From NCBI GenBank assembly GCA_964017185.1, contig OZ024879.1:29360956-29424955 (forward strand): DNA of 64,000 nt. The letters are read 5' to 3'. Below are positions 14,846 to 58,500 of the stretch, in pieces. Numbering within the stretch: the stretch's first letter is position 1; the number at the start of each line of letters is the position of its first letter. Below the pieces are notes generated by a model. It did not search any database and was not told the DNA's origin. It worked only from the letters and a program-made list of their open reading frames with translations. A program made the translations under genes and the position numbers. The stretch is from Rugalucina vietnamica (lineage: Eukaryota > Mollusca > Bivalvia > Lucinida > Lucinidae).

Positions 14846-16391
14846 GAGGTACAAGTAGGAACAGATCAGGAAAAGGCGCAATCAGAAAAAGAATCCCACT
14901 CCAAAAACCGAGGTGGGAAAAAACCAAACTAACAATCAGGTACTTATACAATGAAAACATATCGTAAGCCGAATGAGCAGCTATTTTCCCAATAGGTGAC
15001 CACTCAGTTAGCTAAACTTAACTAAAAATATGAAAACACACACAAGGCGCCAGCAGCACAAAAATTTTAAACACCAAGACATAAAACAAAAAGAACCACC
15101 ACAGAAGTATCGCCTTGGAACGATCAGTAACAAAAAGTTACTGGCGGGCTTAAACCGGTTTTACATGGCCATGACCTCACCCTCAGCTTCTGCAATGGTT
15201 CATAACATTTAGATAGTTCTTCGGTCCTCGTGGTGAATCTCTAACTAGTCAATGAATCATCAAGAACAAGCAAATAAATCACGATAAACATCCTGATGAA
15301 TCAAAATGCAGGACTCACAGATTGAGTAAGCTGCCCGACAATGGAGATCACTGGGTGCCAAATAACTTACTAAATCCGGAGCAAAAGAAAAACACCAGTT
15401 GGACCCCAGTGGGCCAAGCAACAGACAAGAAGCTCCGGCCCCAACCAACTAAAATGAATAGCTTTAAGTCGGGGCCATCATAGAGTCTGACGCCCGACCC
15501 ACCGGCGTGCAATTAAAGAAAGCAGCATAGTTATCAACCATGATTGGGTTAAAATCTAAACGAGTTTAAATTGAGTCAAACCGTGTCTACACGGTTTCCA
15601 AAATCAGTGTCTACACAGTTACATTTTTCTCAAAATCCATCTGTGTCTACACGGTTGCTGACAAAAAAACACAGTGGTCTCTACACAGTTGCCCGAGTGA
15701 AAATTTCAAACTCTGGTATTTTCTTCCACGACAGTTTCTGTGGGCTATCAGGGCTAGGGATGGTGTTTCTGAGACTGGGCTAATAGTATTTTGAAGAGAA
15801 TGGTCGATATTTGCTAATTCAAAGACAAAATATCTCCAAAACCCTGCTGATCTCCGCTTTGATTACAAAATCGGCAATTCACCCACGCATCTAGGCCAAA
15901 TACTTGCTAAAGTGATCAGACTGCATAAAGGCAATAACAAAATTGTAAAATCTAATTTATTCTGAGCATGGGGTTGTCTCAGACTGGTCACTGGCATGTA
16001 AAATGGTATTTTAACAAATGAAAGGCTACTTACAATCTCCCAGTTTTTTCTGGCCGCCATCTTGGTATGATCTACACTAGTGCCAAAAAATCTACAGGAT
16101 ATCACGTACATGACAGTGATAATGAATGGTGGTTATTTTGTTTTATGTCTTGGTGTTTAAAAAAATTTTGTGCTGTTGGCGCCTTATGTATGTTTTCATA
16201 TTTTTAATAAAGTTAAGGTAACTGAGTGGCCACCTATTGGGAAAATAGCTGCTCATTCGGCTTACGATATGTTTCATGGTATAAGTGCCTGATTGTTAGT
16301 TTGGTTTTTTCCCACCTCGGTTTTTGGAGTGAGAATCTCTTTCTGATTGCGCCTTTTCCTGATCTTTGCCTACTTATACCTTTTTAAACTC
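14846..16391. mobile_element. Repeat C element with long inverted arms, interrupted by repeat B
   Basis: The left arm (14846-15205) begins AGGTACAAGTAGG and carries CCACTCCAAAAACCGAGG, CGTAAGCCGAATGAGCAGC and CATAAAACAAAAAGAACCACC. The right arm (16131-16391) is its reverse complement, ending CCTACTTATACC. The interior has a unique segment (15206-15570) and repeat B copy 3. Four other single-arm copies exist in the window (446, 37078, 59592). Copies begin next to TTAA or TTTAA, which would suit a TTAA-targeting element, but no target duplication is proven. No reading frame beyond chance length, so non-autonomous. Confidence 0.65.
15575..16125 (+). repeat. Dispersed repeat B, copy 3, nested in repeat C
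   Basis: The 5' part has four copies of a GTGTCTACAC(A/G)GTT motif in about 100 bases (15582-15690), then GTGGGCTATCAGGGCTAGGG and GGCTAATAGTATTTTG, and ends with CGCCATCTTGGTATGATC and ATCACGTACATGACAGTG. It lies between the two arms of repeat C, so it probably inserted there. Confidence 0.75.
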
Positions 16392-16716: not shown

Positions 16717-16956
16717 GGTCAGTTGTTCCACACAGAGTGGACTTATACCCAGGTAGATGTCAGTTGTTCCACACACTGTGGACTTATACCCAGGTAGAGG
16801 TTAGTTGTGCCACACACTGTGGACTTATACCCGGGGAGAGGTCAGTTGTGCCACACACTGTGGACTTATACCGAGGTAAAGGTCAGTTGTTCCACACACT
16901 GTGGACTTATACCCAGGTAAGGTCAGTTGTTCCACTCAGAGGGGACTTAAACCTGA
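16717..16956 (+). repeat. 40-41-bp minisatellite, about six units
   Basis: Units of about 40 bases with CAGTTGTTCCACACACTGTG and GACTTATACCCAGGTAGAGG start near 16717, 16757, 16799, 16841, 16882 and 16922. The 94-aa open frame across it is a by-product of a period near a multiple of three. Confidence 0.9.
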
Positions 16957-19280: not shown

Positions 19281-19310
19281 TGTACGGTCATTCTCAATAA
19301 TAAGGTGCAC
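19281..19310 (+). repeat. Left terminus: TGTA duplication and 26-bp TIR
   Basis: TGTA at 19281-19284, then the inverted repeat starting CGGTCATTCTC. Similarity to the right end stops exactly after GTGCAC. Confidence 0.9.
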
Positions 19311-19862
19311 AGGACAGTAAAAAATGGTCAAATATATACTGTTGAAAAAACAATTAGTTTGATCATATTTGAAGTCAAAAATGTACATGCTCTATGTCTG
19401 TAAAACAGTTTTTACAAATAGCAAATGTTATACTTTTGGTATGAGTCCAAACTGTGGTACCCTAAACCTAAAAAATCGAGGCAAAATACATCCGTTACAT
19501 AGTACCCCTCTGATAAAAAAGAAGTGGGTATTCTGTTAATCTTTAGAGACATGATAGTGTATCTCAATATTAAGTGCACTAAGAACAAATTATAAGTTTG
19601 TCATGACTCAGCGTCTAACAAATCATTTCTTTCCCTATAAATGTCAGGTGAAATCTGCAGGTGGTCGCATAATCTTTTCGACCTTTGGCATACATAAGAA
19701 CGGAAACACTTTCAATTAAAATAGATCTTAGTATGATACTCTCAATACATCCAGTATTTTCGATTTCGCCACCTACAGGAAAGACAAAGCACAAAACGGG
19801 TTGGTTACCAATTGATCTAAAGTACCTGTCAAACACTATTTCATTTAGATTTCAACCCATTC

Positions 19863-20924
19863 GGTAACGAAGGTATCGAAATTTGTGTATGAGACCATCT
19901 CCTTTTCTCTCTGTCAGAACCTTATGTAGTTAAACAGTACTTGATTTTGATTTGCCTATACGTATCATATCTTTGAAAATTGCAAGTTAAACTGTAATAA
20001 AGTGCTTTCTTCACATTATTTACAATGAATTACTGGAAAATATAGAGAGCCAGGCAGATATTGTTTTTTTTTTTTTGTATTAACTATAATGCAATTCACA
20101 AACTGTAACTGTTAATTAAACAAAACTCTATAAAAAATACAATTGGAATACATTTTTCTTTAAGCCATCTACAAATTCATTCTTAATTAATTACATTCCA
20201 TTGTAACGAATGTATCAGAGGACACTCAAATTAAAACTATGAATAAGGTATATCAGTGAGGCTTGAATTTGATCAAATATGTTCTTAAGTTCTGTAAGTC
20301 CCAAAAGAGATCACAAAAAAGGTTGCTTCTCTTCTCAAAACATTACGTATATTGACAAATGTAACTGGTAACGAAAGTATCATGAATAGCAATCTCATGC
20401 TAAATAACAATCGATAAGAACATAAACCACATTTCTTACAATCGTTACAGTGTTTATTCAAAAAAGGCATCTAGTTGCTTCCATAAGCAGTCAAGTTCAC
20501 TAGCCTAAATGCATTATTTCATGGTAACGAATGTATCAATGCTTTTCATTTGGTGTAACAGCAACATAAATTGTATCTTATCAAGATACTTTATGTAATT
20601 TCACCATAAATCTAAAACAGAGGTACTATTTATCATATGACGTTGCATCTGAGAGTGTGATTAAAAAGCAATTACAACGTGATATAAGATAATAAATATG
20701 ATAAATAGAAACAAACATTTGTGCTAATTATTACTGCATTTATTAAACTCGTTGGAAAAAATGGTACAATGTTCAGCAAAGCCTCGCATCTTATCATTTT
20801 GTCCAAACACGTTTAATAAATTCAATAATGATGAGCACTGTAGTAAGTTCCTCTATATTAGCATTATCTTAAAACAGTCATCTGTTCCAATAGAGCCACG
20901 AAGGTATCGTGCTACCGAAAGTGT
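19863..20924. promoter_or_regulatory. Left array of GGTAACGAARGTATC motifs (candidate transposase-binding sites)
   Basis: Forward copies at 19863-19877 (AAGG variant), 20202-20216 (TGTAACGAATGTATC), 20367-20381, 20523-20537, and degenerate ones at 20895-20908 and 20912-20924, the last ending at the transposase stop codon. All lie within the element and outside its gene. Subterminal repeated sites bound by the transposase are known in several DNA transposons such as Ac and Mu; that role here is inferred. Confidence 0.75.
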
Positions 20925-23495
20925 TTAAATCTGAGTAAAACTTTTGAATAGATTATCAACTAGTTCACTGTCACTTTTGTTGAGCTTAAACAGCCGACCA
21001 GTTTTACCGACTTTCTGTGGCTTTTCAATTTTACAGATTAGATCCTTTTCTCTGATCCAGAGTTTGTCTGGGAAATTTGGCCATTTAAACAAAGCCTTAG
21101 CCTTCTCCATAAAGTTTATTTGGCAGTCTCTGTCTTCTCTATCTATTTCATCCACTGTTCCTATATACCACCTCTTTTCATATATGGCAGCAACATAATC
21201 ACCTACATTAATGCTAGAGAATACGTTTTCTTCAATCTCCATCTCTTCATTCTGAGCCTCCGCATTTGACATTTCTACGTCATCTTCCTGATTACTCAAG
21301 ACAGAACTGTCTTTCTGTCCTTCTTTCTGAACACTCTTTCTACGTACGAGAGCATGTGTGCCTTCAGATAGTTTATGATTCTGTTTTATAATACACCAGG
21401 ATGTGCAAAACGACCCAGTTATGCACTGTTGACAGTAACATGATGTTTCTCTTGTTCTGAAACTGTTATCCTGAAAGGCAATAGCATGAAGTTTCATAGT
21501 GTTTTTAACCTTGCTTGCGTCAACAGAACTGAATTCTTCTGCTTTCTCTGTACATTTTTCCTTACTGACAAAGAGGAACGCTACTTCTTTAATGCTCGAA
21601 CAGACACCCCATTTGTAAAAGTCCTGCGCATCCTGGATAGTAGCATTGCCCTGGCGCACCGCTTCATCAGCCATCCGTTTTGTGAGACCACCAATTCCGT
21701 CGCACGCACTCTTGCCGTGACCGGCTTCAAAGAAGTTCCACTGTGCATCACAATTATAGATTTCTTGATGTTTTGATAACATGTCAAAAATGTATCGGTT
21801 TCTGTATTGGCTTGATGGACTGTCAGTCCAATAATGAATTCTTTCTAGCTCAGGATCAAGTTTTCTAAGTTCAGGAATAACAACATCCAGAAATGCACAT
21901 ACCGTACTAGCTGAGTGTCCTAATTCATCAGAAACAACAACATAACTCTTATGCATAAGTTTTTCATCTTTCTTCCAATATACTACAACTGGGTGTAATG
22001 TAACAGCCGTTTGTTTCCAGTATGCACACGTTGGTTCATCAACATATCGACAAGAGTAATTTTCAGCGAAGTCCATCTGGACAATCATATGATGTTCTTT
22101 TAAATTCTCCTTGTTTGCTTTTAGCTGATGAAACTGAGCTCTTAGACGCGCTACATGCTCAGAAAATTCTTTAACCTCTCTCTTAACTGTTGCAATGAAC
22201 GTTTCTCTGTCCATTTTCACCTCAACAATTTTCATTTTCATGCGTTTCTCAGCTATCTCAACCCTTTTCCAAGTTTTAAAAGAAACTGTATCTTCAGTAA
22301 TGCAATCTGTGATAGAATCAAGATTGTTCTCATGATCAAGAATACTTTCAGGATTTTCTCTCAGTTTAGCTCCTGCCTTTCTTAGAGCCTGAATTTTTAG
22401 CGCCATGTTTTGGTGCCTTAAACACTGGCATGCATTTCTTGAGATAAATCTAGCAAGATAAATGTTACTTGGTCGAATGCGACAAAACGTTGCAAAAGAA
22501 ATTTTCAGAGATGGATTTTCAGCACAAAATTTCTGATACAGATTCTGCATGTAATCTGTCAAAACTTTTATTTGCTTTCTTGTACCGTTTTCTGTTTTTG
22601 AATCTGCTTTGCCAGGCTGAGTTCTACTGTTGTCTTCCCTACTCAGAAATTCGATGACCTTGTGCTTGATCCGACTTGAAACACTTTGCCTTACTTCTTT
22701 CCTAGCAGACAGAGTCTTTCCTGAACTCTTTCCCAGTGCATTTCTGGACAAGCCGGTCTGGCGGCTGATAGCTTTGATGCATTTATATTTTTTTGCTAAT
22801 TTTCCAGATATAACTTTATGTATAACTGAATGCTTCTTCTTAGAGCTTTCTTTCTTGGCTGCAGTTATTTCTCCGATCAGAACATGACTTGTTATTAATT
22901 TTTTCTTAACTTTATCTCTGCTGCTTGGAGTTAGGTTTATGCCAGAAATGTCTTCTTCAGCTTTTCTCTCTGGAGTACACAGTTTACTCTTGCTTTTATC
23001 AACTTTCATTCTCTTATTTAGCCTCTCTATCTGCTTGGTTTTGCTTTTAAGCCTTCTCTGCAATTTGATCTGATCTTCCTTTAATTCTCTTATTGTTTTA
23101 TGGGCTCTAGCCAATGCTCGCGCTCTTGCCTTTTTAGCTCCTTTTTCTTTTGCAGCCATCTGCACTGATGGCAAACTGACTATCAACCGTTGTGGAGAAC
23201 GATCTTCAGGAGCTGGAGTTGTGTCCATCACATTACTTGCATAACCACTTGTATCTTCGTCACTGGATTCATGAATCCATAATGCTCTCAGCCTGTCTCT
23301 CTGTCGCTGTCTAGAAAGCCTGTTTCTTATCTTATTTTTCTCATTTCTTTCCTTCCGTGCTTTACTATTTAGCAATTCAGCTGGTATGTAAGATTTACGA
23401 GCCCTTTCTCTCTCTCTGGCATTATATTCATCTCCGAGTTTGGCCTTTAGTCTTTCTCTGTACGCCTTTTGAATTTCTGCTCTAGTTTTTCCCAT
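20925..23495 (-). CDS. DDE-type transposase, 856 aa, intact
   Basis: Start chosen at ATG 23495 (MGKTRAEIQKAYRERLKAKL), because TTTCTTTCCTCCAG|G lies directly before it and makes the 10-residue upstream extension intronic. Residues 1-75 and 115-165 are basic and coiled-coil-like. 236-258 (KYKCIKAISRQTGLSRNALG) looks like a helix-turn-helix. The catalytic core has MDFAENYSCRY (D475), HYWTDSPSSQYRN (D558) and QWNFFEAGHGKSACDGIGG (E590), giving a D-82-D-31-E pattern. A Cys cluster follows (C686, C688, C691, C697, C701, CYCQQC...). 763-825 (VGDYVAAIYEKRWYIGTVDE) resembles a Tudor/SH3-like fold. From recall, WNFF..GHGK..DGIGG proteins are common uncharacterised animal ORFs. Expected to bind the element's ends and cut and paste it in the nucleus. 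No internal stop. The triad is my inference, strengthened because D and E positions recur in the relic at 37.7-39.6 kb. Confidence 0.9.
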   Translation of the reverse strand: MGKTRAEIQKAYRERLKAKLGDEYNARERERARKSYIPAELLNSKARKERNEKNKIRNRLSRQRQRDRLRALWIHESSDEDTSGYASNVMDTTPAPEDRSPQRLIVSLPSVQMAAKEKGAKKARARALARAHKTIRELKEDQIKLQRRLKSKTKQIERLNKRMKVDKSKSKLCTPERKAEEDISGINLTPSSRDKVKKKLITSHVLIGEITAAKKESSKKKHSVIHKVISGKLAKKYKCIKAISRQTGLSRNALGKSSGKTLSARKEVRQSVSSRIKHKVIEFLSREDNSRTQPGKADSKTENGTRKQIKVLTDYMQNLYQKFCAENPSLKISFATFCRIRPSNIYLARFISRNACQCLRHQNMALKIQALRKAGAKLRENPESILDHENNLDSITDCITEDTVSFKTWKRVEIAEKRMKMKIVEVKMDRETFIATVKREVKEFSEHVARLRAQFHQLKANKENLKEHHMIVQMDFAENYSCRYVDEPTCAYWKQTAVTLHPVVVYWKKDEKLMHKSYVVVSDELGHSASTVCAFLDVVIPELRKLDPELERIHYWTDSPSSQYRNRYIFDMLSKHQEIYNCDAQWNFFEAGHGKSACDGIGGLTKRMADEAVRQGNATIQDAQDFYKWGVCSSIKEVAFLFVSKEKCTEKAEEFSSVDASKVKNTMKLHAIAFQDNSFRTRETSCYCQQCITGSFCTSWCIIKQNHKLSEGTHALVRRKSVQKEGQKDSSVLSNQEDDVEMSNAEAQNEEMEIEENVFSSINVGDYVAAIYEKRWYIGTVDEIDREDRDCQINFMEKAKALFKWPNFPDKLWIREKDLICKIEKPQKVGKTGRLFKLNKSDSELVDNLFKSFTQI

Positions 23496-23525
23496 CCTGG
23501 AGGAAAGAAATAAAACAATTCTCAC
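23496..23525 (-). other. 3' splice site just upstream of the transposase start
   Basis: On the minus strand TTTTATTTCTTTCCTCCAG ends at 23497, with exon base G at 23496 and ATG at 23495-23493. A pyrimidine-rich tract plus CAG suggests a 5'-UTR intron whose donor lies towards the right end of the transposon. Confidence 0.55.
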
Positions 23526-23595
23526 AGAAGACGGACGTGAAGAAAATTCGACGGACGGACGGACGACGGACTGATGTTACAACCAGCAAAATTAA

Positions 23596-24880
23596 GGTAA
23601 CGAAAGTATGATACCTTCGTTACTATTGTGATGCAGGTATGATTGGCATGATTACATGCAGTAGTTGCATAATCATATAATAAGATACGAATGAAACATG
23701 AATATCAAATGTTGACATAAAGAGTGTTCTATTGGTGGCCGTTTAAGATAGATGTACTGATGGCTATAAAAGTTAGTATTTAGTACCTAATTGCACTAAA
23801 TATACCGTTTCCATTCAGCCCAAATAAAATGACTATTTTTAACAAATCTGTGTGTATGTAGGCGCTGTTGCAATTTTGACACTTGAATTTATTTCGTTTA
23901 CGCAATATCAAATTAGTCTACAAAACAAGTATTTCGAAAAGCAACTCAGTAGATCGTTATATTTCATGATACCTTCGTTACCATGCCGTAACGAAGGTAT
24001 CCACGTGAAATCAACCATAATAGTCTATACAGAGTGCACAGAAGTGACATATGGTTTTCATATAAGAACTGGCGATACTTTTCGATATGTAAGACAATCA
24101 ATATTGTTGTGTATTTCACCCAAAACGAATAATTTCTTACCTGTGAAGTAGGCCTGTCTAATAAAATTCTTCTTCAGTGGCGATTTTTACTGCAGTCTCC
24201 CAAAATAAGGACACAAGGGTTATGCTGTGACATCACAAGTTTTTGTGACGTCATTAATGGCATTCGGCCATAAAATGGATTCGTTTACAGGCAAGTTCGT
24301 ACTTTTTGGTAACAAATGTATTGGTAACGAAAGTATCGTAAAGAACTTCGAGGCGCATTTAGAAAGATATGTGAACAGTTGTATAAAATATCATGCCCGT
24401 TGCTTAATCTGCAGCATACAGAGAGTTTTTACATGATATGGGATTTAGTTAAACTTTAGTATAAGAACTGTACGGACCAGGTAACGAAAGTATCACTGAT
24501 TTTATAACTTGTAAACAAACAGTGCGTTTTAATATGTATTTAGCGAAATGAAAGATTCACTGTCCTGGGTTAGTTTTATTTCGGTACAGCAACTATTTCG
24601 CTATAAAACGGACGCTAAAATGCAAGTCTTACAGGATGTTTCTTTATTTTACTGCCGCATGTCAAAGCCATATATAAGATTTATAAAAACGAGGCGACAT
24701 TTTTCAAGGCTATATAAAATGTACTTCTAAGTAGGTCTATAGACAGCAATGACAACCGACGCTATCCTGGGAAGTGATTGTAACAAAGCATAAGCTTTGA
24801 CTGGACCTACCTACCGTTCGAGAGGAATGATTAAGTTATATTGCATAAGAACTCGTAAGGCGACAGGTAACGAATGTATC
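23596..24880. promoter_or_regulatory. Right array of GGTAACGAARGTATC motifs, including two inverted pairs
   Basis: Copies at 23596-23610 (forward) and 23610-23623 (reverse, overlapping), 23968-23982 (reverse) and 23987-24001 (forward) making a 15-bp-arm hairpin with a 4-base spacer, 24308-24322 (degenerate) abutting 24323-24337, 24480-24494 and 24866-24880. The last two and others sit next to ATAAGAAC. This flank should also hold the transposase promoter, so binding here could autoregulate transcription; that is inference. Confidence 0.75.
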
Positions 24881-25033
24881 GTTCGTAGTGTTGTTTGGCC
24901 AGGTTTGTCAACAATAATATTGAGAATCAAGATCTTATTTGTATGCAAGATGTATTCGTATGAATTGTTTGTTATACAGTATAAACTTGACCAGATGAGG
25001 CCGGCGTTTAATATAATGTACAGGCGACATAGA

Positions 25034-25063
25034 GTGCACCTTATTATTGAGAATGACCGTGTA
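25034..25063 (-). repeat. Right terminus: 26-bp TIR and TGTA duplication
   Basis: GTGCACCTTATTATTGAGAA then TGACCG ends at 25059, the exact inverse of 19285-19310, followed by TGTA. Confidence 0.9.
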
Positions 25064-26829
25064 ATGTCTATGATATGGAATAGCTCTCAACTCAAAGATA
25101 CTGAACAAGTCTTGCAATCCAATAAATCTTAATATCAGCAATCCATCATTTTTGTCCTGTAACAAAAATATACCATATAGACTATAGAATTGCTGCAATT
25201 CTGATATGAAGAAACACAATTCAAATGTTATATTCATGAAAAACTATTGAATTTTTTTGTGATTCACATTCAATGAAATGGTACCCTCGATTCCGGTTGA
25301 TGCGATTGGTTAAACAGTCATAAGTCGGAATAAAACGGGGATTTTGATATCACACCGTATTAGCGGCAAAACAGAACGCCCTATAAGATCGCAGAATGCC
25401 GACCTTTTTGACAGGCCAATGTTGCGGGTAAGGTTATCATTTTATTGTTTTTCATGGGAATTGAAGGCATGTCAGCAAAGGTGAGTACGCCATTTCTTAT
25501 GAATAAGGATGAAAAGTTTGAACTGTTTTCACAATTTTGATTTGGGTTTCCCACACATGTCCAACCTAATGGAGTTAGTCTAGCCACTGGTTCACCAAGC
25601 TGTCCCTTTATGTCATGATATGAATAGTGAAGATCTTGATAATCAATTCCTTTCAGCAGATCGACAATTGTTCTTGAACCAAGCTCAGGAAAATCAAACG
25701 CCTTCAAATGTTCATATTTAGCTGAATGTTTACTCCACTGAATCACGTTCATATCGCATGTAACCCTTTCTGCAGTGAACGTATACACTTGCTGTGTATC
25801 GTTCGATTTCCATTTTTCACGATCACTGGCACTGTTATTAGTACGCAAAGGTCTGGTTTGTGAGACCTTGTCATTGTGTACTATTTGGCCTCGTGTCCAC
25901 CTCCATGGACCTCTTAAATGACGTTTCATTCTTCTCAATGAACTTTGATTCCTCTTATCTTTATGAAGAAGGTTAGAGTGGATTTCTTTGCAGCCACTGA
26001 CACCACAAACCTTACTCCTTGGACATTGTTGGCCGATATGGGAGTCGCCCAAGCACCGATAGCAAAGACGAAACCCCATCTCTGAGACACATTTAGCTTT
26101 CGAAAGTCATTGCATTCCCATATGCCATGAGATCCACCACAATGCTTACACACGAATTGTCTTTTTTGTCTTCCCTGATTCGATTCCCTAGTTGTGGTAG
26201 AAGACTTGTCATTGGCAAAATTTGTATACTGAGTTCTCCTTTTGGGTTCTGAATATTTGCTTGAGTCCTTTTACGTCAACCCTCTTATTGTTTCAGCTCC
26301 TATAGTCTAAAATTCTGCCTCTTGAATGACCCAGTAGCGTAAGATCTCCACTGATTCTTCCTAACTGTTTTCAAACACCCATCGATGATATCTTGCAAGC
26401 AGTTGTTCAGGTAATTTTCTTTGAATTTTCTGATATAACGATCCGTTACCCAGCTCTTCCACCCTATCCATTTCTTTTAAGTTAACTATTGCGGTGTCCA
26501 GTAAATCTGCGAATCGTTCTATTACTTTCATTATATAGCCACTGTTCTCATTCAATGGTTTGTTAAAAGATTCTATTTCATCTAGATATATTGCTACCTG
26601 ACGTCTCTGACCAGCGAATTTTCTGTCCAGTCTCTCTTTCGCTGTCTCATACTCGACCGCAGAATGTCCCAGATTTTCAATACATTTCAAGGCCTCACTC
26701 GATAGATATTGTCTAAGTTGTAATAATTTATACTCTGCTGTAGCCGGTGCCTTATCAATACATGCAACAAAGGCTGCTTACCATGGTTCATATCGCCTTT
26801 TGTCGCCAGAGAATACAGTTGTTTAAGTT

Positions 26830-37874: not shown

Positions 37875-38104
37875 GAGCCGTCTCGTAGGAAAACCAACAA
37901 TCTGCATATGCGAAAACAAAGGCGCAGATCAGCTTCGCAGTAACTGCGAAGCTGATCAGCGCCTTTGTTTTCGCAACACGGATAGAACAACTCCTCTACT
38001 TTCTAAATCCAAAATTTCCAGTCTCTAGCCATCTTTTATGCTTGTACAGGCCGGTTTGTGTCAAGCCAGTTCGGAAACCACGTTTGATTTCCCACGAGGC
38101 GGCT
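37875..38104. mobile_element. Miniature foldback element with 65-bp palindromic core, copy 1
   Basis: Ends GAGCCGTCTCGTAGG and its near-inverse CCCACGAGGCGGCT. The core at 37910-37974, GCGAAAACAAAGGCG ... GCGCCTTTGTTTTCGC around CAGCTTCGCAGTAACTGCGA, is almost a perfect palindrome. Copy 2 is at 49522. It lies within the transposase relic; ATTTT next to both ends may be its duplication. Confidence 0.75.
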
Positions 38105-38112
38105 AAAATGTA

Positions 38113-39024
38113 CGAGGGGGGTTCAGAAAGTTCTGTCATATGTGTTATAACTTTGTTAATAGACATAATAGGTTGCTGTATTATACCTTGATTGAAAGGG
38201 CAACATTTCTCCTTTATAATGATACCAAAACAATGCACGAAAAGAAATAAATACTTCGAAATAGACGCCTTGAAAGACACCAGGGGTAAACCACTGGCAC
38301 GTTTTCTTAAATTTGTGAATAATATCTAAAGAAAATCGACTTCGAAAAAATATAATCCATGTAATATATTTTTGAAACATAGATGAATATATCCTGCAAA
38401 AATCAAAATCATTCAGCTGAATTTAATTGAGTTATAGTAAAATGAAATACTGAAATTGGCTTGTTGTACATACATTAAAAATACAGTTTAAATTGAAATG
38501 ACATTTATTGACATCTACACGTAGTCCAGGGAGCTTAAAATGCATTTAACCATTTTATTGTTTCATCCTTGTGTGCTCTATAGTAAACTTATAAAAAAGC
38601 AAACACATATAATGGTGCAGCGGTGCCAGAAACGCTATAGGGGTACGTATTTTAATGACGTCATATACATTGCTTTATTATAAAGTCAGCATAGCATCGA
38701 TAACGGCAATTTTTGTCACATTGCTTTTCTAAATATATTATTACTTATAACTGTAAAGTTGGAGAAAATTTGATCGGAAGTTATAAAGATATAACGCATG
38801 AAACGCACACAATAATATTCACAAATTCAAGAAAACGTGCCAGTGGTTTTACCCCAGGTGTCTTTCAAGGCATGTATTTCGAAGTATTTATTTCGTTCGT
38901 GCATTGTTTTGGCATCATTATAAAGGAGAAATGTAACCCTTTCAATCAAGGTATAATACAGCAACCTATCATGTATATTAAAAAAGTTATAACACCTATG
39001 ACAGAACTTTCTGAACCACCCTCG
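38113..39024. mobile_element. Tc1/mariner-like miniature element, 912 bp, ~220-bp inverted repeats
   Basis: Ends CGAGGGGGGTTCAGAAAGTT and inverse AACTTTCTGAACCACCCTCG, each flanked by TA. The arms (38113-38330, 38805-39024) match for about 220 bases (GCCTTGAAAGACACC, AAACCACTGGCACGTTTTCT). No transposase inside. It interrupts the relic at 37.7-39.6 kb. Confidence 0.85.
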
Positions 39025-39756
39025 TATTAACATCAAGCACATCCTGATCCTGCTTCACCAATTCATTAGCCGACCTTTTCACTGAGCCACCTATTGCAGG
39101 TGGTATCCCTTTTCCATGACCGGATTCATGGAAATTCCAGCTAGCCCCAGTAAACCCAAGGTGATAAAGTCTGTTGCCAGGGAAAAAAAGAGCCTTTCTG
39201 ACGATACTGAGTGCTAGGCCCATCGCTGAAATAAATTGCAGGGAACCTTGTCTTGATTTCTTCCAACATAATATTGAGCTATGCACAAACAGCTGCAGGT
39301 CCATGGATCAGAAATTCCACAAAAACTGACTGATTACGTGCTCCAACCTACAGCAAAGTATCCAGTATGTAAGGAAATTGTGGCTTGGAAGCCCCAAAGT
39401 GCATTTCGGCCACTTCTTTGCCATATTTTCCGACGTAGTTCTCAGCAAAAATCAAATTTAAGGCAATTGTTTTCTTGACAGACCTTTGATGAAAGTGTCA
39501 TAGTAACCTCTCTTTTTTAGATCTCGGTGTGTCTTTAGCCGTATCCTTTTCTTCCGAGACATATGTAGAAAGGTTTACATCCATTCTTTTAAATTACGCA
39601 CCAGAACAATTTTGGGAATGCGCTGTACTGTATTAAAAATGCTATCAATGACTAGATGAAAACTACAAGTGCTGTTCTTTACGAGAATAAAACTACAACC
39701 ACATTCTTCTCTAAATGACATAATAAAACAATAAATGGTAAAAACAAGATTAAACC

Positions 39757-42990: not shown

Positions 42991-43883
42991 ATCCTAAAAG
43001 AAACCAGAACATTTATATTGTGGGATTAATCTAAACAAAAGGGTCCTGTAAAATAAATTATACCGACCACTTTTACAGCCATTTTGCTTATACAGTGGAT
43101 GTGCTTACCTCTGTTTTTAATGTTCATTGATTTTTACATGTTTATTTATATTTGTTTTAACTATTACCGATTTTAAACCTGGAATTATTCTACTTAAATT
43201 AGTCCACTGATTTGACTGTCATTACAAAGAAGGCCCGTACCGGACCCGGATTAGAATAGGCCGGTCGCTCCCTCATGCGGAACCGTAAAACCCGGTCAAA
43301 AGAGGTGCCACCTGTTTGCCGTGGGTGGATACCCGTAAGCCGGAGAAGAGGATCCTGGAGGTTGAGGGACAGGCCAGAGATCTTCACCTGTCTCAACACG
43401 CCTCTTTGGCCTCGGATTCGGTGTAAACGGGAGGCCGTGGAGGCTCGACACGGTCAATCGGCTGCCATGCCTTGCCCTGAGATCTCTTCTTCCTTCTAAC
43501 TTTTTCAGTATCGAATGATACTCAACCGTGTTCCAACTTTCTTCATTTAATCATCCTTTTCCCTATATCTCAGAAGGCGGTGGTGTAAGGGTCAATCGAC
43601 GGGCTTGTTTTTCGGTATTTCTGGGTTACTTGGGTCTAGGTTGATAGGCAGGGTGGGTACAACGTCTGAATGTTATTTCGGTTTTCTTTATTAGACATCT
43701 GACTTAATATTCATTTGTTGTTAAAGCTTGGGTAGTCTGAAGTACTTTGGAATCTTGCACGGCGAGTATGACGGGTATGTAGCTTTGGCGCTGGAAACTG
43801 GAGAGCCATTTCCGTATAGCGTCCCCTTGTAGGGCTCCAAGGAGGGTGAAGCGCATAGCCGTCGAGACTTAAAACTAAAAAAA

Positions 43884-45107
43884 ATGGATTCAATAGCACA
43901 CAAACGACAACGACCGGACTCCGACGACGATATAGACGCTTCGACACTGTTTAGAGCACAAGAAAATTTTCCAAAGTTTATTATTATTGAGTCAACAAAC
44001 AAAGAAACACAAGTTACATCACTGTCACCTTTCGTTATTGAGAAACAAATTGAATCTATGATAGGTACACCAAAATCTGTGAAGAAATTAAAAAACGGAA
44101 CATTGTTAGTAGAAACAACAAGGAAAATGCAAACAGATATTCTTCTAAAATCAAAAAAGTTCTTCAATCTACCAGTAGAGGTTAAACCACACAAAACTCT
44201 AAACTCTTCCAAAGGCATAATCAGAGACAGAAATCTCAAAGGAGAATCGGAAAAGAACATACTCGAGTACTTGGAAAATCAAGGTGTTACAGCAGTAAAA
44301 CGCTTCACAGTTAAAAAAGGACAAGACACAATCAACACGAATACACTTCTTTTAACATTTGACTCAGTTGTACCACCTAAATCTCTGAAAATCTTTTATC
44401 AAATTATTCCTGTCGATCTGTACATACCAAATCCTTTGAGATGCTTTAACTGTCAGAAATTTGGACACCATGAGGACAAATGCCCAGTTGACCCCGGGTC
44501 AGTCTGTGAAAGATGTGGTATGGGAAACCATGACCATCATACAAATCACTGTAAAAACCCCACAAAATGTGTCAACTGTGGCGGAGCGCATCTATCACGG
44601 TCAAATGAATGCGAAACATGGAAGAAGGAAAAAGAAATCATGCGATTGAAGATAACAAAGAACTTGACATATCTTGAAGCTCGAAAACAACTTGAACAGA
44701 AGCCTGAATTTAGTTTCTCACATATAGTCAAATCACTTGCTGCCAAACCAGAAACCAAAACAGCTGCTACACAATACAGTGTCGAAGACTGTAAGATTAC
44801 AGAGAGTTCAAAAGTTCTCATTGCGAGGAAACCAAACAGAAACAATAATTCTCAAAATCAGAACGTAACATCAAGCAAATCTCTGTCAGAACAAGCCAAA
44901 GTTAGTTCAAAACCAAACCAACCGAGTACAAACGCAAAACCACATTCTGCATCCAGTAGGGTGCAGAAGGGATCAGATGATCCCGTCCAACAGTATAACA
45001 AATTTGGAGCTCTGGCTAATGACGATGCCATGGAGATGGACGAGGTTGCCTCGCGCCCTGGTTCCCGTGGCCATCGTCCTCGGTCACCAATCACAGCTCC
45101 AAAGTAA
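43884..45107 (+). CDS. LINE copy 1 ORF1: nucleic-acid-binding gag-like protein, 407 aa
   Basis: Open throughout. Residues about 60-180 look like the RNA-binding fold common in LINE ORF1 proteins, followed by three Cys/His knuckles: CFNCQKFGHHEDKC (187-200), CERCGMGNHDHHTNHC (208-223) and CVNCGGAHLSRSNEC (229-243). The C-terminus is Ser/Asn/Lys-rich. It packages LINE RNA in the cytoplasm (family role). The first ~185 residues are encoded by DNA about 20% different from copy 2, mostly at third positions. Confidence 0.93.
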   Translation: MDSIAHKRQRPDSDDDIDASTLFRAQENFPKFIIIESTNKETQVTSLSPFVIEKQIESMIGTPKSVKKLKNGTLLVETTRKMQTDILLKSKKFFNLPVEVKPHKTLNSSKGIIRDRNLKGESEKNILEYLENQGVTAVKRFTVKKGQDTINTNTLLLTFDSVVPPKSLKIFYQIIPVDLYIPNPLRCFNCQKFGHHEDKCPVDPGSVCERCGMGNHDHHTNHCKNPTKCVNCGGAHLSRSNECETWKKEKEIMRLKITKNLTYLEARKQLEQKPEFSFSHIVKSLAAKPETKTAATQYSVEDCKITESSKVLIARKPNRNNNSQNQNVTSSKSLSEQAKVSSKPNQPSTNAKPHSASSRVQKGSDDPVQQYNKFGALANDDAMEMDEVASRPGSRGHRPRSPITAPK

Positions 45108-45169
45108 AAGTTTCCAGTCTACATTTAAACAAAAGGTCACGCATTTAAATCTCCTCTCTAAATTATTTA

Positions 45170-48100
45170 ATGGGTAGCAAATATAATATAATACAATGGA
45201 ACTGTCGAGGTGTAAAACCACGTTTTGAAGAACTACTACTTCTTTTGTCACTACTTAGACCTTCTGTTTTCTGTCTTCAAGAAACTTTCCTCAAACCTAA
45301 TGACACGTTTACTTTGAAAGGCTTTAATATTTACAATCACATACACTTGGATTGTCTAAGAGCATCTGGTGGAAGCTCTTTACTTGTCCATTCAACATTA
45401 CCACAACGTCAAATTAAACTTAAAACGGATCTACAAGCGGTAGCTGTTTCTGTTACACTCGAGAAAGAGATAACTTTCTGCTCAGTCTATATCCCTCCCT
45501 CTTATCTTTTAAAATCTGAACAACTTACTTCTTTACTTCAACAGCTTCCTTCACCCTATATGTTGGTAGGTGACTTCAATGGTCACAATGTGCTTTGGGG
45601 TTGTAATGACAATGATCCCAGAGGAGAATTAATCGAGGATTTCATCACGAAAAACGACATTTGTTTGATGAATGATAAATCTAACACTTATCTAGATTCT
45701 GGTAAAGGCACATTCTCATCCCTTGATCTTTCACTCTGTCACCCCTCTCTCTATCTTGACTATGACTGGTCTGTTTGTGAAGATCAACGTGGATCTGACC
45801 ACTTTCCAATTTTGATTGAAAGCGTTCAGACTCATGATGAAGCCCATAATCCCAAATGGAAATTGAATAAAGCAGATTGGGATTTATTTCATACTTTATG
45901 TAATGAGTCCCTTACTGATACTTTTCTCTCTGATTCTTCTCATCCTATAACTGACTTCACCTCTTCTTTAATAAATATATCTGAGAAATGTATCCCCAAA
46001 ACCTCGACGAACCCAAAGAAAAGTAACCCATGGTATAATGACGATTGTAAAGAAGCTATCAAACAACGGAAAGACACTTTGTCGAAGTTCTGCAAGTTCC
46101 CAACGCATGCAAATTTAAATAGTTATAGGAATTCTAGAGCAAAAGCCCGTCGGACTATAAAGTCTGCAAAACGCAAGTCATGGAGAACATACGTATCGAA
46201 TTTGAATTATAAAACACCCACTAAAAAAGTTTGGGACATGGTTAGGAAAATATCCGGTAAATCTAAATCTGCTTCTTATCACCATCTTAATTACAATTTC
46301 AACAATGCGAACGAAACAGCTTCCACAAAACAAGATATAGCAGATACTTTGGCATCACAATTTTGTTCAAATTCCTCAACCAGTCATTATTCGGAGGAAT
46401 TTCAAAAATATAAGAAAGAACAAGAAAAGACTAAGTTAAACTTCAAGTCCTCAAATAATGAAGAATACAATACTCCGTTTAATTTGGATGAACTAAAAGA
46501 CGCCATCAGTAAAGCCCATGATACAGCAACAGGTCCCGACGAAGTTCACTATCGAATGTTAAAACATCTTCCACCAAAATCACTTCTTGCTCTCTTAGAT
46601 ATATTTAATGATGTGTGGGAAACTGGAAAGTTTCCCGAAAGTTGGGAACTAGCCACTATAATACCAATTCCTAAACCTGGAAAAGACCATGCAGAACCTA
46701 ACAGCTATAGACCGATAGCACTTACAAGTTGTCTTTGCAAAACTTTAGAGAGAATGATAAATTTGGTTGGTACTTAGAAAGTAATAACCTAATATCTCCT
46801 GTTCAGTCGGGCTTCCGTTCTGAACGAAGTACCAACGACAATCTAGTAAGACTGGAAACCTTTATTCGTGATGCCTTTGTTGCAAAAGAGCATGCTGTTG
46901 CTGTGTTTTTCGACTTGGAAAAAGCTTATGATACCACCTGGAGACATGGTATTATGCGAGATCTACATGATCTCGGAATACGAGGCAGATAAGCTACATT
47001 TATCGAAAATTTCCTTGCGGATCGTTGGATCCAGGTTCGTGTTGGATCGACTTTATCCGAAAAGTTCGACCAAGCACAGGGTGTCCCACAAGGGAGCATC
47101 TTGTCTACAACATTGTTCAATATTAAGATAAATAGCATAATGGATTGCTTGGATCCTAAAACAGATGGATCATTATATGTAGATGATTTCTGTATGTGTT
47201 ACAGGTCAAAAAGTATGAGAACTATCGAAAGGCACTTACAGCAGTGCATCAACAGAATAGAACACTGGGCCTTACATAATGGTTTCAAATTTTCCAAGTC
47301 GAAAACTCAATGTGTACATTTTTGTCAACTACGGAAAGTACACAATGATCCCGAACTTTATTTATATGGTTCTCTTATTCCAGTAGTTGAAGATTTTAAA
47401 TTTCTTGGAGTTCTTTTTGATCGTAAACTTTCTTTCATTCCACATATCAAGTACTTAAAAGCCAAATGCCTGAAAGCGTTGAACTTACTGAAAGTATTAT
47501 CACACACAGACTGGGGTGCTGATCGCACTGTCCTTCTCCAGCTATACCGTTCCCTCATTCGTTCAAAATTAGATTATGGATCCATCGTATATGGCTCGGC
47601 AAGACCATCATATATCAGTTCTCTTGACACAGTGCATCATCAAGGCCTAAGATTAGCTCTGGGTGCTTTTCGAACATCACCTGTACAAAGCCTCTATGTC
47701 GAGGCTGAAGAGCCATCTCTATATTTACGACGAGAGAAACTTGCCCTACAGTACGCCATTAGAATTGCTGCTAATCCATCAAATCCAGTTCATAAGGTGT
47801 CTTTTCCGCCATATATTTCTGAAGAAGTCGTACAGCTTTACGAAAGTAAACCAAAGGCTATCCGGTCCTTTGGTTTACGGGTTGCACCACTTTTAGAATC
47901 AGCAAACATCCAAAAAGATAAAATAGAAGAACATTTTGTTTCAGAAATACCATCATGGTGCATTAGAAAACCAGAAGTTAATTTGACTCTACATACAGGG
48001 AAAAAATCCGACTCAAATCCACACCTTCTAAAAGAAAGTTTTCATCAACTACAATCTCAATTTATTGACTATCAATGTATTTATACTGATGGTTCAAAAG

Positions 48101-48873
48101 AAGAAAACAAAGTTGGTTGTGCTTATTTTACAAACGGCAATTGCAAAACATTACGTTTACCTGATGGCTCTTCAATTTTCACTGCGGAAGCTAAAGCTAT
48201 AGACTTAGCTTTAGACTTCGTAAATGAAAGTAACTTAAAGGACAAATTTATTATTTTTTCTGACTCTATGTCAGTTCTACAGGCCTTAAACCATACATCA
48301 TCCAAAAACCCTCAAATACAAAAACTATTAATAAAACATCATACCATCTCGGAATTGAAAACAATTATCTATTGCTGGGTTCCCAGTCATATAGGTATAT
48401 ATGGAAATGAGAAAGTTGATAAGAACGCTAAAGAATCGTTAAATCTAGAAGAAACCGTTTTTAAAATTCCTTATGTCAATTTTAAACCTTTTATGAACGA
48501 GTACATCTCTGACAAATGGCAAACAATCTGGAATGGAGCGAAGTTTGATAAATTGAGGGAAGTCGAACCGATCGTTAAACGACCAAAAGCAATTCATAAA
48601 CTTTCGAGACGAGAAGAAATCGTTCTTGCTCGTCTCCGAATTGGTCATACAAGAATAACACATTCCCACTTATTAAAGCGAGAAGATGAACCTAAATGCA
48701 TTGGCTGTGATACACCATTCACAGTTAAACACTTTCTTTTAGAATGCACTGACTTTGCAGCAGAGCGAATTTCTTGTTTTCAAGCTAATAACTTGAAAGA
48801 ATTGTTCAAAGATGTACCCGTTGGAAAGATTTTATCATTTCTTAGACAAGTAAATCTGTTTTATAAAATATAA
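45170..48873 (+). pseudogene. LINE copy 1 ORF2, broken by one frameshift and one stop
   Basis: Endonuclease and the start of the reverse transcriptase are open to about 46760. There a 7-base deletion relative to copy 2 (46762-46771 area) shifts the frame, and TTA has become TAA at 46990-46992. Beyond it YVDD, the thumb region, RNase H and the C-terminal CX2CX7HX4C knuckle remain open to 48873. Only two lesions in 3.7 kb mean recent death. Confidence 0.93.
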
Positions 48874-53581: not shown

Positions 53582-54232
53582 GGCCCGTACCGGACCCGGA
53601 TTAGAATAGGCCGGTCGCTCCCTCATGCGGAACCGTAAAACCCGGTCAAAAGAGGTGCCACCTGTTTGCCGTGGGTGGATACCCGTAAGCCGGAGAAGAG
53701 GATCCTGGAGGTTGAGGGACAGGCCAGAGATCTTCACCTGTCTCAACACGCCTCTTTGGCCTCGGATTCGGTGTAAACGGGAGGCCGTGGAGGCTCGACA
53801 CGGTCAATCGGCTGCCATGCCTTGCCCTGAGATCTCTTCTTCCTTCTAACTTTTTCAGTATCGAATGATACGCAACCGTGTTCCAAATTTCTTCATTTAA
53901 TCATCCTTTTCCCTATATCTCAGAAGGCGGTGGTTTAAGGGTCAATCGACGGGCTTGTTTTTCGGTATTTCTGGGTTACTTGGGTCTAGGTTGAGAGGCA
54001 GGGTGGGTACAACGTCTGAATGTTATTTCGGTTTTCTTTAATAGACATCTGACTTAATATTCATTTGTTGTTAAAGCTTGGGTAGTCTGAAGTACTTTGG
54101 AATCTTGCACGGCGAGTATGACGGGTATGTAGCTTTGGCGCTGGAAACTGGAGAGCCGTTTCCGTATAGCGTCCCCTTGTAGGGCTCCAAGGAGGGTGAA
54201 GCGCATAGCCGTCGAGACTTAAAACTGAAAAT

Positions 54233-55456
54233 ATGGCTTCCTTAAATAACAAACGACAACGACCGGATTCCGACGATGATATAGACGCTTCGACACTGTT
54301 TAGAGCACAAGACACTTTTCCAAAGTTTTTACTCATTGAATCAACTATTAAAGAAACACCAGTTACGTCACTGTCACCATTTGTGATTGAAAAGCAGATA
54401 GAAAGCATGATAGGTACGCCAAAATCCGTCAAGAAATTAAAAAATGGAATGTTGCTTGTGGAAACAACACGAAAAATGCAAACGGACATCTTATTGAAAA
54501 CAAAAAAGTTCTTTAACCTATCAGTAGAAGTGAACCCGCACAAATCTTTGAATTCTTCGAAAGGCATCATCAGAGACAGAAACCTCAAAGGAGAGTCAGA
54601 AAAGAACATCCTGGAATATTTAGAAAATCAAGGTGTAACGGCAGTTAAACGTTTTACCGTTAAGAAAGGACAGGAAACCATCAACACCAATACTTTGCTA
54701 CTTACTTTCAACTCAGTCGTCCCACCAAAAGCAGTCAAAATTTTCTATCAAATTGTACCTGTTGACATATACATACCTAACCCTTTGAGATGTTTTAACT
54801 GTCAGAAGTTTGGACACCATGAGGACAAATGCCCAGTTGACCCCGGGTCAGTCTGTGAAAGATGTGGTATGGGAAACCATGACCATCATACAAATCACTG
54901 CAAAAACCCCACAAAATGTGTCAACTGTGGCGGAGCACATCTATCACGATCAAATGAATGCGAAACATGGAAGAAGGAAAAAGAAATCATGCGATTGAAG
55001 ATAACAAAGAACTTGACATATCTTGAAGCTCGAAAACAACTTGAACAGAAGCCTGAATTTAGTTTCTCACATATAGTCAAATCACTTGCTGCCAAACCAG
55101 AAACCAAAACAGCTGCTACACAATACAGTGTCGAAGACTGTAAGATTACAGAGAGTTCAAAAGTTCTCTTTGCGAGGAAACCAAACAGAAACAATATTTC
55201 TCAAAATCAGAACGTAACATCAAGCAAATCTCTGTCAGAACAAGCAAAAGTTAGTTCAAAACCAAATCAACCGAGTACAAACGCAAAACCACATTCTGCA
55301 TCCAGTAGGGTGCAGAAGGGATCAGATGATCCCGTCCAACAGTATAACAAATTTGGAGCTCTGGCTAATGACGATGCCATGGAGATGGACGAGGTTGCCT
55401 CGCGCCCTGGTTCCCGTGGCCATCGTCCTCGGTCACCAATCACAGCTCCAAAGTAG
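54233..55456 (+). CDS. LINE copy 2 ORF1: nucleic-acid-binding gag-like protein, 407 aa
   Basis: MASLNNKRQRPDSDDDIDAS start, an RNA-binding-like region (about 60-180), three CCHC-type knuckles at residues 187-243, and a disordered Ser/Asn-rich tail with SRPGSRGHRPRSP. Same length as in copy 1. About 21 differences from it in the first 190 residues but only a handful afterwards. The stop lies 62 bases before ORF2 in another frame, so ORF2 is probably reached by reinitiation or an internal start. Confidence 0.95.
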   Translation: MASLNNKRQRPDSDDDIDASTLFRAQDTFPKFLLIESTIKETPVTSLSPFVIEKQIESMIGTPKSVKKLKNGMLLVETTRKMQTDILLKTKKFFNLSVEVNPHKSLNSSKGIIRDRNLKGESEKNILEYLENQGVTAVKRFTVKKGQETINTNTLLLTFNSVVPPKAVKIFYQIVPVDIYIPNPLRCFNCQKFGHHEDKCPVDPGSVCERCGMGNHDHHTNHCKNPTKCVNCGGAHLSRSNECETWKKEKEIMRLKITKNLTYLEARKQLEQKPEFSFSHIVKSLAAKPETKTAATQYSVEDCKITESSKVLFARKPNRNNISQNQNVTSSKSLSEQAKVSSKPNQPSTNAKPHSASSRVQKGSDDPVQQYNKFGALANDDAMEMDEVASRPGSRGHRPRSPITAPK

Positions 55457-55518
55457 AAGTTTTCAGTCTACATTTAAACGAAAGGTCACGCATTTAAATC
55501 TCCTCACTAAATTATTTA

Positions 55519-58500
55519 ATGGGTAGCAAATATAAAATAATACAATGGAACTGTCGAGGTGTAAAACCACGTTTTGAAGAACTACTACTTCTTTTGTCAC
55601 TACTTAGACCTTCTGTTTTCTGTCTACAAGAAACTTTCCTCAAACCTAATGACACGTTTACTTTGAAAGGCTTTAATGTTTACAATCACATTCACTTGGA
55701 TTGTCTAAGAGCATCTGGTGGAACCTCTTTACTTGTCCATTCAACATTACCACAACGTCAAATTAAACTTAAAACGGATCTACAAGCGGTAGCTGTTTCC
55801 GTTACACTTGAGAAGGAGATAACTTTCTGCTCAATCTATATCCCTCCCTCTTATCTTTTAAGATCTGAACAACTGACTTCTTTACTTGAACAGCTTCCTT
55901 CACCCTATATGTTAGTAGGTGACTTCAATGGTCATAATGTGCTTTGGGGTTGTAATGAAAATGATCCCAGAGGAGAATTAATCGAGGATTTCATCACGAA
56001 AAACGACATTTGTTTGATGAATGATAAATCGAACACTTATCTAGATTCTGGTAAAGGCACTTTCTCATCTCTTGATCTTTCACTCTGTCACCCCTCTCTC
56101 TATCTTGACTATGACTGGTCTGTTTGTGAAGATCAACGTGGATCTGACCACTTTCCAATTTTGATTGAAAGCGTTCGGACTCATGATGAAGCCAATAACC
56201 CCAAATGGAAATTACATAAAGCAAATTGGGATTTATTTAATACCTTATGTAATGAGTCCCTTACTGATACTACTCTGTCTGATTCTTCTGATCCTATAAC
56301 TTACTTTACTTCTTCTTTAATAACTATTTCTGAGAAATGTATCCCCAAAACCTCGACAAACCCAAAGAAAAGTAACCCATGGTACAATGACGATTGTAAA
56401 GAGGCTATCAAACAACGAAAAGACACTTTGTTGAAGTTCTGCAAGTTCCCAACGCATGAAAATTTAAATACTTATAGGAATTCTAGAGCAAAAGCCCGTC
56501 GGACTATAAAGTCTGCAAAACGCAAATCATGGAGAACATACGTATCTAATTTGAATTATAAAACACCGACTAAAAAAGTTTGGGACATGGTTAGGAAAAT
56601 ATCCGGTAAATCTAAATCTGCTACTTATCATCATCTTAATTACAACTTCAACAATGCGAACGAAACAGCTTCCACAAAACAAGATATAGCAGATACTTTG
56701 GCATCACAATTTTGTTCAAATTCCTCAACCAGTCATTATTCGGAGGAATTTCAAAAATACAAGAAAGAACAGGAAAAGACTAAATTAAACTTTAAGTCCT
56801 CAAATAATGAAGAATATAATTCTCCATTTAATTTAGATGAACTAAAAGACGCCATCAGTAAAGCCCATGATACAGCAACAGGTCCCGACGAAGTTCATTA
56901 TCAAATGTTAAAACATCTTCCACCAAAATCACTTCAGGCTCTCTTAGATATTTTTAATGATATGTGGGAAACTGGAAAGTTTCCCGAAAGTTGGGAACTA
57001 GCCACTATAATACCAATTCCTAAACCTGGAAAAGATCATGCAGAACCGAACAGCTATAGACCGATAGCACTTACAAGTTGTCTTTGCAAAACCTTAGAGA
57101 GAATGATAAATGTAAGACTTGTATGGTACTTAGAAAGTAATAACCTAATATCTCCTGTTCAGTCGGGCTTCCGTTCTGAACGAAGTACCAACGACAATTT
57201 AATTAGACTGGAAACCTTTATTCGTGATGCCTTTGTTGCAAAGGAGCATGTTGTTGCTGTGTTTTTCGACTTGGAAAAAGCTTATGATACTACCTGGAGA
57301 CATGGTATTATGCGAGATCTACATGATCTCGGAATACGAGGCAGATTAGCTACATTTATTGAAAATTTCCTTGCGGATCGTTGGATCCAGGTTCGTGTTG
57401 GATCGACTTTATCCGAAAAGTTTGATCAAGCACAGGGTGTTCCACAAGGGAGCATCTTGTCTACAACTTTGTTCAATATTAAGATAAACAGCATAATGAA
57501 CTGTCTGGATCCTAAAACAGATGGATCCTTATATGTAGATGATTTCTGTATGTGTTACAGGTCAAAAAGTATGAGAACTATCGAGAGGCACTTACAGCAG
57601 TGCATTAACAGAATAGAAAACTGGGCCTCACATAATGGTTTCAAATTTTCCAAGTCGAAAACACAATGTGTGCATTTCTGTCAATTACGGAAAGTACACA
57701 ACGATCCTGAACTATATTTATATGGGTCTCTTATTCCAGTAGTTGAAGATTTTAAATTTCTTGGAGTTCTTTTTGATCGTAAACTTTCTTTCATACCACA
57801 TATCAAGTACTTAAAGGCCAAGTGCCTAAAAGCATTAAACTTACTGAAAGTATTATCACACACAGACTGGGGTGCTGATCGCACTGTCCTTCTCCAGCTA
57901 TACCGTTCCCTCATTCGTTCAAAATTAGATTATGGATCCATCGTATATGGATCGGCAAGACCATCATATATCAGTTCTCTTGACACAGTGCATCATCAAG
58001 GCCTAAGATTAGCTCTGGGTGCTTTTCGAACATCACCTGTACAAAGCCTCTATGTTGAGGCTGAAGAGCCATCTCTATATTTACGACGAGAGAAACTTGC
58101 CCTACAGTACGCCATTAGAATTGCTGCTAATCCATCAAATCCAGTTCATAAGGTGTCTTTTCCGCCATATATTTCTGAAGAAGTCGTACAGCTTTACGAA
58201 AGTAAACCAAGGGCTATCCGGTCCTTTGGTTTACGGGTTGCACCACTTTTAGAATCAGCAAACATCCAAAAAGATAAAATAGAAGAACATTTTGTTTCCG
58301 AAATACCATCATGGTGCATTAGAAAACCAGAAGTTAATTTGACTCTACATACAGGGAAAAAATCCGACTCAAATCCACACCTTCTAAAAGAAAGTTTTCA
58401 TCAACTACAATCTCAATTTATTGACTATCAATGTATTTATACTGATGGTTCAAAAGAAGAAAACAAAGTTGGTTGTGCTACTTTTACAAACGGCAATTGC

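Follow-up and report, generated by a model that had tools for sequence, protein, structure and literature searches.

Sola elements are described in PMC10741241 as transposons with a DDD transposase, a 4-bp target-site duplication, a length mostly of 2-9 kb and inverted ends of 11-1124 bp. They are recorded in bivalves and other metazoans (PMC10294476, PMC10741241), while the molluscan Sola elements reported in PMC10294476 come from bivalves only and the curated Sola1 elements there have a mean length of 5445 bp. Sola1, Sola2 and Sola3 are treated in PMC4455052 as distinct, divergent subgroups within one superfamily, and the target given for amoebozoan Sola2 is the AT-rich AWWT (PMC3627910). 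Among the other groups with which a 4-bp element may be compared, Kolobok and piggyBac are listed with TTAA duplications (PMC9587614), and Ginger proteins are characterised as Gypsy-integrase-like (PMC10741241).

The element described here (Table 1) lies in a 64-kb window, by which we mean the whole stretch of DNA that was analysed. It is bounded by two 26-bp arms that are exact inverted matches of each other, with TGTA directly outside each of them. The original prediction of a complete, uninterrupted DNA transposon with perfect 26-bp inverted ends and an identical TGTA on both sides is well supported by the ends, the flanking tetranucleotides and the open gene, the longest exact inverted repeat of the element being 27 nt as compared to 11-17 nt in 60 dinucleotide shuffles. 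When the window was scanned with up to 3 mismatches, the 26-bp end sequence was found at these two places only (expected number 0.00, from 100 shuffles). Directly past the 26 bp the left and right ends are unlike each other in the 60 bp compared. An imperfect copy of the end sequence is located inside the element, about 277 bp from its left end, with a local alignment score of 26 against a maximum of 23 in 500 shuffles. A candidate inner copy at the right end (score 21) was rejected as being within chance, its score having been matched by 24 of 500 shuffles.

A19284 and T25060 also pair, so the arms can be read as 27 bp long, which leaves a 2-bp GT duplication on both sides. A boundary misread in this way would be compatible with the other readings of the element, but it is considered very unlikely. 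The boundary with 26-bp ends and a 4-bp duplication is preferred because TGTA is the longest duplication match and no extra assumption is needed. A blastn search of the rest of the window with the predicted empty site gave nothing at E up to 0.01. The element as a query against the other parts of the window gave six weak blastn matches, the best with an E value of 0.007 over 22 bp.

Table 1 Features of the element and of the related relic in the 64-kb window
Feature	Position	Strand	Basis or remarks
Left target-site duplication, TGTA	19281-19284		Sequence
Element	19285-25059		5775 bp
Left terminal inverted repeat, 26 bp	19285-19310	+	Exact inverted match to 25034-25059
Imperfect inner copy of the end sequence, TCTCAATATTAA-GTGCAC	19562-19579	+	Local alignment; coordinates from the alignment offset
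Left GGTAACGAANGTATC group	19863-20537	+	Starts at 19863, 20202, 20367, 20523
Transposase gene, 856 aa	20925-23495	-	ATG at 23495, stop at 20925-20927
Tentative Tudor/SH3-like C-terminal region	20997-21236	-	Non-significant matches only
Cysteine cluster CYCQQCITGSFCTSWC	21393-21440	-	C-x-C-x2-C-x6-C-x3-C, residues 686-701
Putative catalytic core	21699-22073	-	D475, D558, then E590 or D599; acidic-residue spacing, numbered from the ATG
Palindrome of two inverted GGTAACGAANGTATC copies	23596-23624		About 100 bp upstream of the ATG; z -4.57
Second palindrome of two inverted GGTAACGAANGTATC copies	23968-24001		Upstream of the gene; z -6.08
Right GGTAACGAANGTATC group	24308-24880	+	Starts at 24308, 24323, 24480, 24866
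Right terminal inverted repeat, 26 bp	25034-25059	-	Exact inverted match to the left arm
Right target-site duplication, TGTA	25060-25063		Sequence
Decayed relic of a related transposase	39050-39590	-	tblastn; broken by stops and a frame change; outside the element

The surroundings of the element contain several other features. About 300 bases to its right begin probable pieces of a BEL/Pao-type retrotransposon (25381-26777, minus strand), within which the stretch at 26361-26777 matches DUF1759 (E 9.5e-7), a domain we take to be the BEL/Pao gag. Two closely similar LINE copies are present at 43833-48873 and 54209-59229. The latter has an uninterrupted ORF2 of 1243 codons matching endonuclease and reverse transcriptase models, while in the former ORF2 is broken into two parts, of which the second matches reverse transcriptase and RNase H; the LINE ORF1 is zinc-knuckle-like by eye and has no Pfam match. 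An Rfam SECIS_1 match at 15422-15489 on the minus strand (39 bits, E 2.5e-4, above the gathering score) suggests a selenoprotein gene upstream of the SECIS on the same strand. By eye, 16720-16950 shows a number of tandem-like repeat units, roughly 40 bp long, with CAGTTGTTCCACACACTGTGGACTTATACCCAGGTA in them. The DUF1759 fragment, the LINE copies and the SECIS match suggest that the DNA comes from an animal, probably an invertebrate and conceivably a bivalve.

The transposase gene occupies an open frame of 883 codons, which gives 856 aa from the ATG, whereas the longest frame in 100 shuffles was 177 codons; the single uninterrupted gene of the original prediction is thereby confirmed. The G+C content at codon positions 1, 2 and 3 is 0.454, 0.371 and 0.334, respectively. 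The ATG has an A at -3 and a G at +4, and AATAAA is found 181 nt beyond the stop. Since the ATG is preceded by a pyrimidine-rich tract ending in CAG and resembling a splice acceptor, an upstream exon is possible. Residues 1-300 include 82 K+R versus 35 D+E, and this basic N-terminal third probably functions in nuclear entry and DNA binding.

The middle of the protein contains a putative RNase H-like DDE/D core, proposed from motif spacing. D475 lies in QMDFAENY and D558 in YWTDSPSSQYR, with 82 residues between them, and there are two candidates for the third catalytic residue, both in WNFFEAGHGKSACDG: E590, 31 residues further on (DD31E), and D599, 40 residues further on (DD40D). No significant match to a family model or a solved structure was obtained in Pfam, NCBIfam, PHROGs or PDB (best E 0.026). 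The two single-sequence structure models were poor, with mean pLDDT values of 34.8 and 50.3, and Foldseek with the second model gave nothing with an E value of 0.001 or below, whether in PDB or among viral models. With E up to 10, nothing named as a transposase or RNase H appeared among the best 50 of 820 matches in PDB or the best 50 of 619 among viral models. Two of the fold matches listed (E 0.40 and 0.62) are to the nuclease domain of a herpesvirus terminase, a domain that is presumably RNase H-like, and they lend no support to the fold. The models and the fold searches are regarded as uninformative, and an RNase H fold is not disfavoured by them.

A decayed relative of the transposase was found about 14 kb from the element. 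It was detected by tblastn at 39050-39509 with an E value of 7e-12 and, under looser settings, over the whole relic with 2e-11; the core alone as a query hit the same place (E 3e-12), while E values below 1e-3 were not obtained with any of 100 shuffled cores, the lowest being 0.011. The relic reads FAENY, SDGPSTQYR and WNFHESGHGK...IGGSVKR, in pieces split by stops and a frame change, and around GHGK 18 of 32 residues are identical to those of the protein. The second D (D558), E590 and HGK are retained, with I replacing the first D and P replacing the third, which may be due to decay. The relationship is beyond chance, and the protein therefore belongs to a transposase family that is represented at least twice in this genome, though the relic has diverged too far to be a copy of the element. 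An alignment of the core with the pieces of the relic placed the short pieces wrongly and was discarded. A foldback element at 38111-39026, whose arms of about 215 bp are 91-94% complementary in three blocks, directly adjoins the relic and may represent an insertion into it. At 37909-37975 there is an almost perfect palindrome, its two arms of 33 nt being 97% complementary around a single central nucleotide.

The relic also exemplifies the decay that takes place in this genome. By comparison, the identical 26-bp ends and the uninterrupted frame of the element would be unexpected after long neutral decay, and it is therefore most improbable that the element no longer moves by itself, being either a domesticated transposase gene or a long-frozen transposon with ends preserved by chance, although only one copy is seen and its ends have no other copy in the 64 kb.

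Relatives of the protein were also sought elsewhere, and none was confirmed among viral contigs (10 stretches with the peptide pattern), prokaryotic genomes (29 stretches), plasmids or phages (3 records, the best of which, at E 0.7, is a purine enzyme); a 98-aa core query gave 4 stretches in viral contigs, none of them confirmed. The peptide-pattern scans (viral, prokaryotic and core) each used six short exact peptides and reach close relatives only. Scans for the HGK motif yielded 9, 20 and 1 viral stretches and 27 prokaryotic stretches. In a tblastn comparison with an E limit of 1, the protein found nothing in the first 56 loci, and the best E value in the 57th was 0.39. By eye, none of them looked related, as judged on the frames of the first nine loci and on the frames longer than 120 codons of the others.

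With no homology to any reference found in Pfam, NCBIfam, PHROGs and PDB, the element might be a DDE/D cut-and-paste transposon of some other or undescribed superfamily with 4-bp duplications, resembling Sola only in its general layout. This explanation is unlikely but has to be weighed seriously, the more so as the E of E-x-GHGK is retained in the relic, which would allow a DDE triad, 31 residues separating its E from the second D, in place of DDD, and as the target described for amoebozoan Sola2 is AWWT and not TGTA (PMC3627910). Were the other superfamily Ginger, the Gypsy-integrase-like protein described for that group (PMC10741241) should be recognisable by Pfam, whereas no integrase model is among the Pfam matches listed at E up to 10, a search in which few matches above about 0.1 pass the HMMER filters. 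Moreover, Sola1, Sola2 and Sola3 are themselves mutually divergent according to PMC4455052, and for this reason the absence of a match says little against a Sola-type element.

The element carries a short repeat, GGTAACGAANGTATC; when up to 2 mismatches are allowed, 12 copies (4 on the left and 8 on the right) are found in its non-coding DNA, which totals 3152 bp. At 2 mismatches no copy was found in the gene or in the remaining 58 kb of the window, and no copy appeared in 40 shuffles of the non-coding parts; when 3 mismatches to one fixed form were allowed, 12 of the 15 matches in the window fell within the element. Ten copies have plus-strand orientation and the other two minus, each minus copy forming a palindrome with a plus copy. 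Shuffled sequences folded as well as the palindromes in 1 of 200 cases for the one closer to the ATG and in 0 of 200 for the other. The repeats are most simply explained as putative transposase binding sites.

The cysteine cluster of the original prediction is present downstream of the core, whereas the proposed Tudor/SH3-like C-terminus gained sub-threshold Tudor-type matches and no significant one in Pfam or PDB. In Pfam, the translation of 20928-21275 matched HAS-barrel with an E value of 0.026 and MORC2 chromo-like with one of 0.029, neither of which attains the curated cut-off. In PDB the C-terminal region matched six sequences at E up to 10, namely a DUF724 protein (the best, E 0.33), four PHF1 chains (E 1.1-1.3) and one dehydrogenase E2 component; the PHF1 and DUF724 regions matched are assumed by us to be Agenet/Tudor domains. 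A reversed and two shuffled versions of the region matched 3, 6 and 0 PDB sequences with best E values of 0.88-1.3, and neither PHF1 nor DUF724 was among these control matches, one of which was an uncharacterized protein. This control is suggestive only, since its E values are near the true value of 0.33, and the Tudor-like C-terminus is best treated as a suggestive lead. If real, it may be a rare case among transposable elements, given that an algal Gypsy element is presented in PMC12477816 as the first transposable element with a Tudor domain to the knowledge of its authors.

Taken together, the transposase would consist of a basic N-terminal third, an RNase H-like DDE/D middle part, the cysteine cluster and, at the C-terminal end, a small region that may be Tudor-like. 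The N-terminal third would bring the protein into the nucleus and onto DNA, and the core in the middle would cut and join DNA. The transposase is expected to recognise the 26-bp ends, aided by the internal GGTAACGAANGTATC sites, to excise the element and to insert it at a target whose strands are cut 4 bp apart, so that TGTA comes to flank it on both sides. Through the two pairs of GGTAACGAANGTATC copies that form palindromes in front of the gene, the protein may also regulate its own promoter. A bolder version, in which the element represents an undescribed superfamily or a deep Sola branch, with a Tudor-like chromatin reader steering insertion towards particular chromatin and transposase-bound palindromes limiting expression, is regarded as distinctly doubtful. 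As a complete and apparently intact member of a little-studied transposon group whose protein has no part significantly matching a solved structure by sequence, the element offers a practical start for testing how such transposases work.

Among known systems, hAT elements (Ac/Ds, Tol2) possess many short subterminal repeats thought to be transposase binding sites, and the short internal repeats near the ends of this element are similar in that respect. However, the hAT duplication is 8 bp long, and here there is no hAT model among the Pfam matches listed and no C/DxxH motif between D558 and D599, the sole C/DxxH of the protein being at residue 358, before the first D. Academ and Ginger elements have duplications of a length similar to the one observed here. 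Kolobok, in turn, has a C/DxxH motif that is without counterpart between D558 and D599, and neither a piggyBac nor a THAP model is among the Pfam matches listed for the protein. Kolobok and piggyBac are alike to the present element as cut-and-paste DDE/D elements with 4-bp duplications, but their duplication is given as TTAA (PMC9587614) and the one found here is TGTA. The original prediction that a 4-bp duplication is typical of Sola therefore fits the descriptions of that superfamily without being exclusive to it.

As regards Sola, the TGTA duplication differs from the AWWT target of amoebozoan Sola2 (PMC3627910), and neither twelve GGTAACGAANGTATC repeats nor a Tudor-like C-terminus is mentioned in the passages on Sola consulted in PMC10294476, PMC3627910, PMC10741241 and PMC12477816. 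Against a Sola-type reading also stand the lack of a significant model or structure match, the poor models, the relic without the first and third D, and the fact that only one copy is seen; in its favour are the ends, TGTA, the 856-aa frame, the ATG context and AATAAA, the repeats, the D/E spacing and the relic. Of the Sola-like identity proposed originally, the agreement with the published general features (PMC10741241) stands, and no significant match was obtained in Pfam, NCBIfam, PHROGs or PDB. The 4-bp duplication is seen here, with the 2-bp reading remaining from a single copy, and the lengths of the ends and of the element are within the ranges given in PMC10741241; D475-x82-D558-x40-D599 is present as a candidate DDD triad, with E590 as an alternative third residue and with poor fold models. 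It is quite likely, on structural features and not on sequence homology, that this is a DNA transposon which moves autonomously by cut and paste and which belongs to the Sola superfamily or is closely related to it; it is of an ordinary kind and well preserved. With its 4-bp duplication, 26-bp inverted ends and size of 5775 bp, which agree with Sola elements as described in PMC10741241, and with its large transposase and possible D-D-D triad, it probably works like a Sola element and probably is one.
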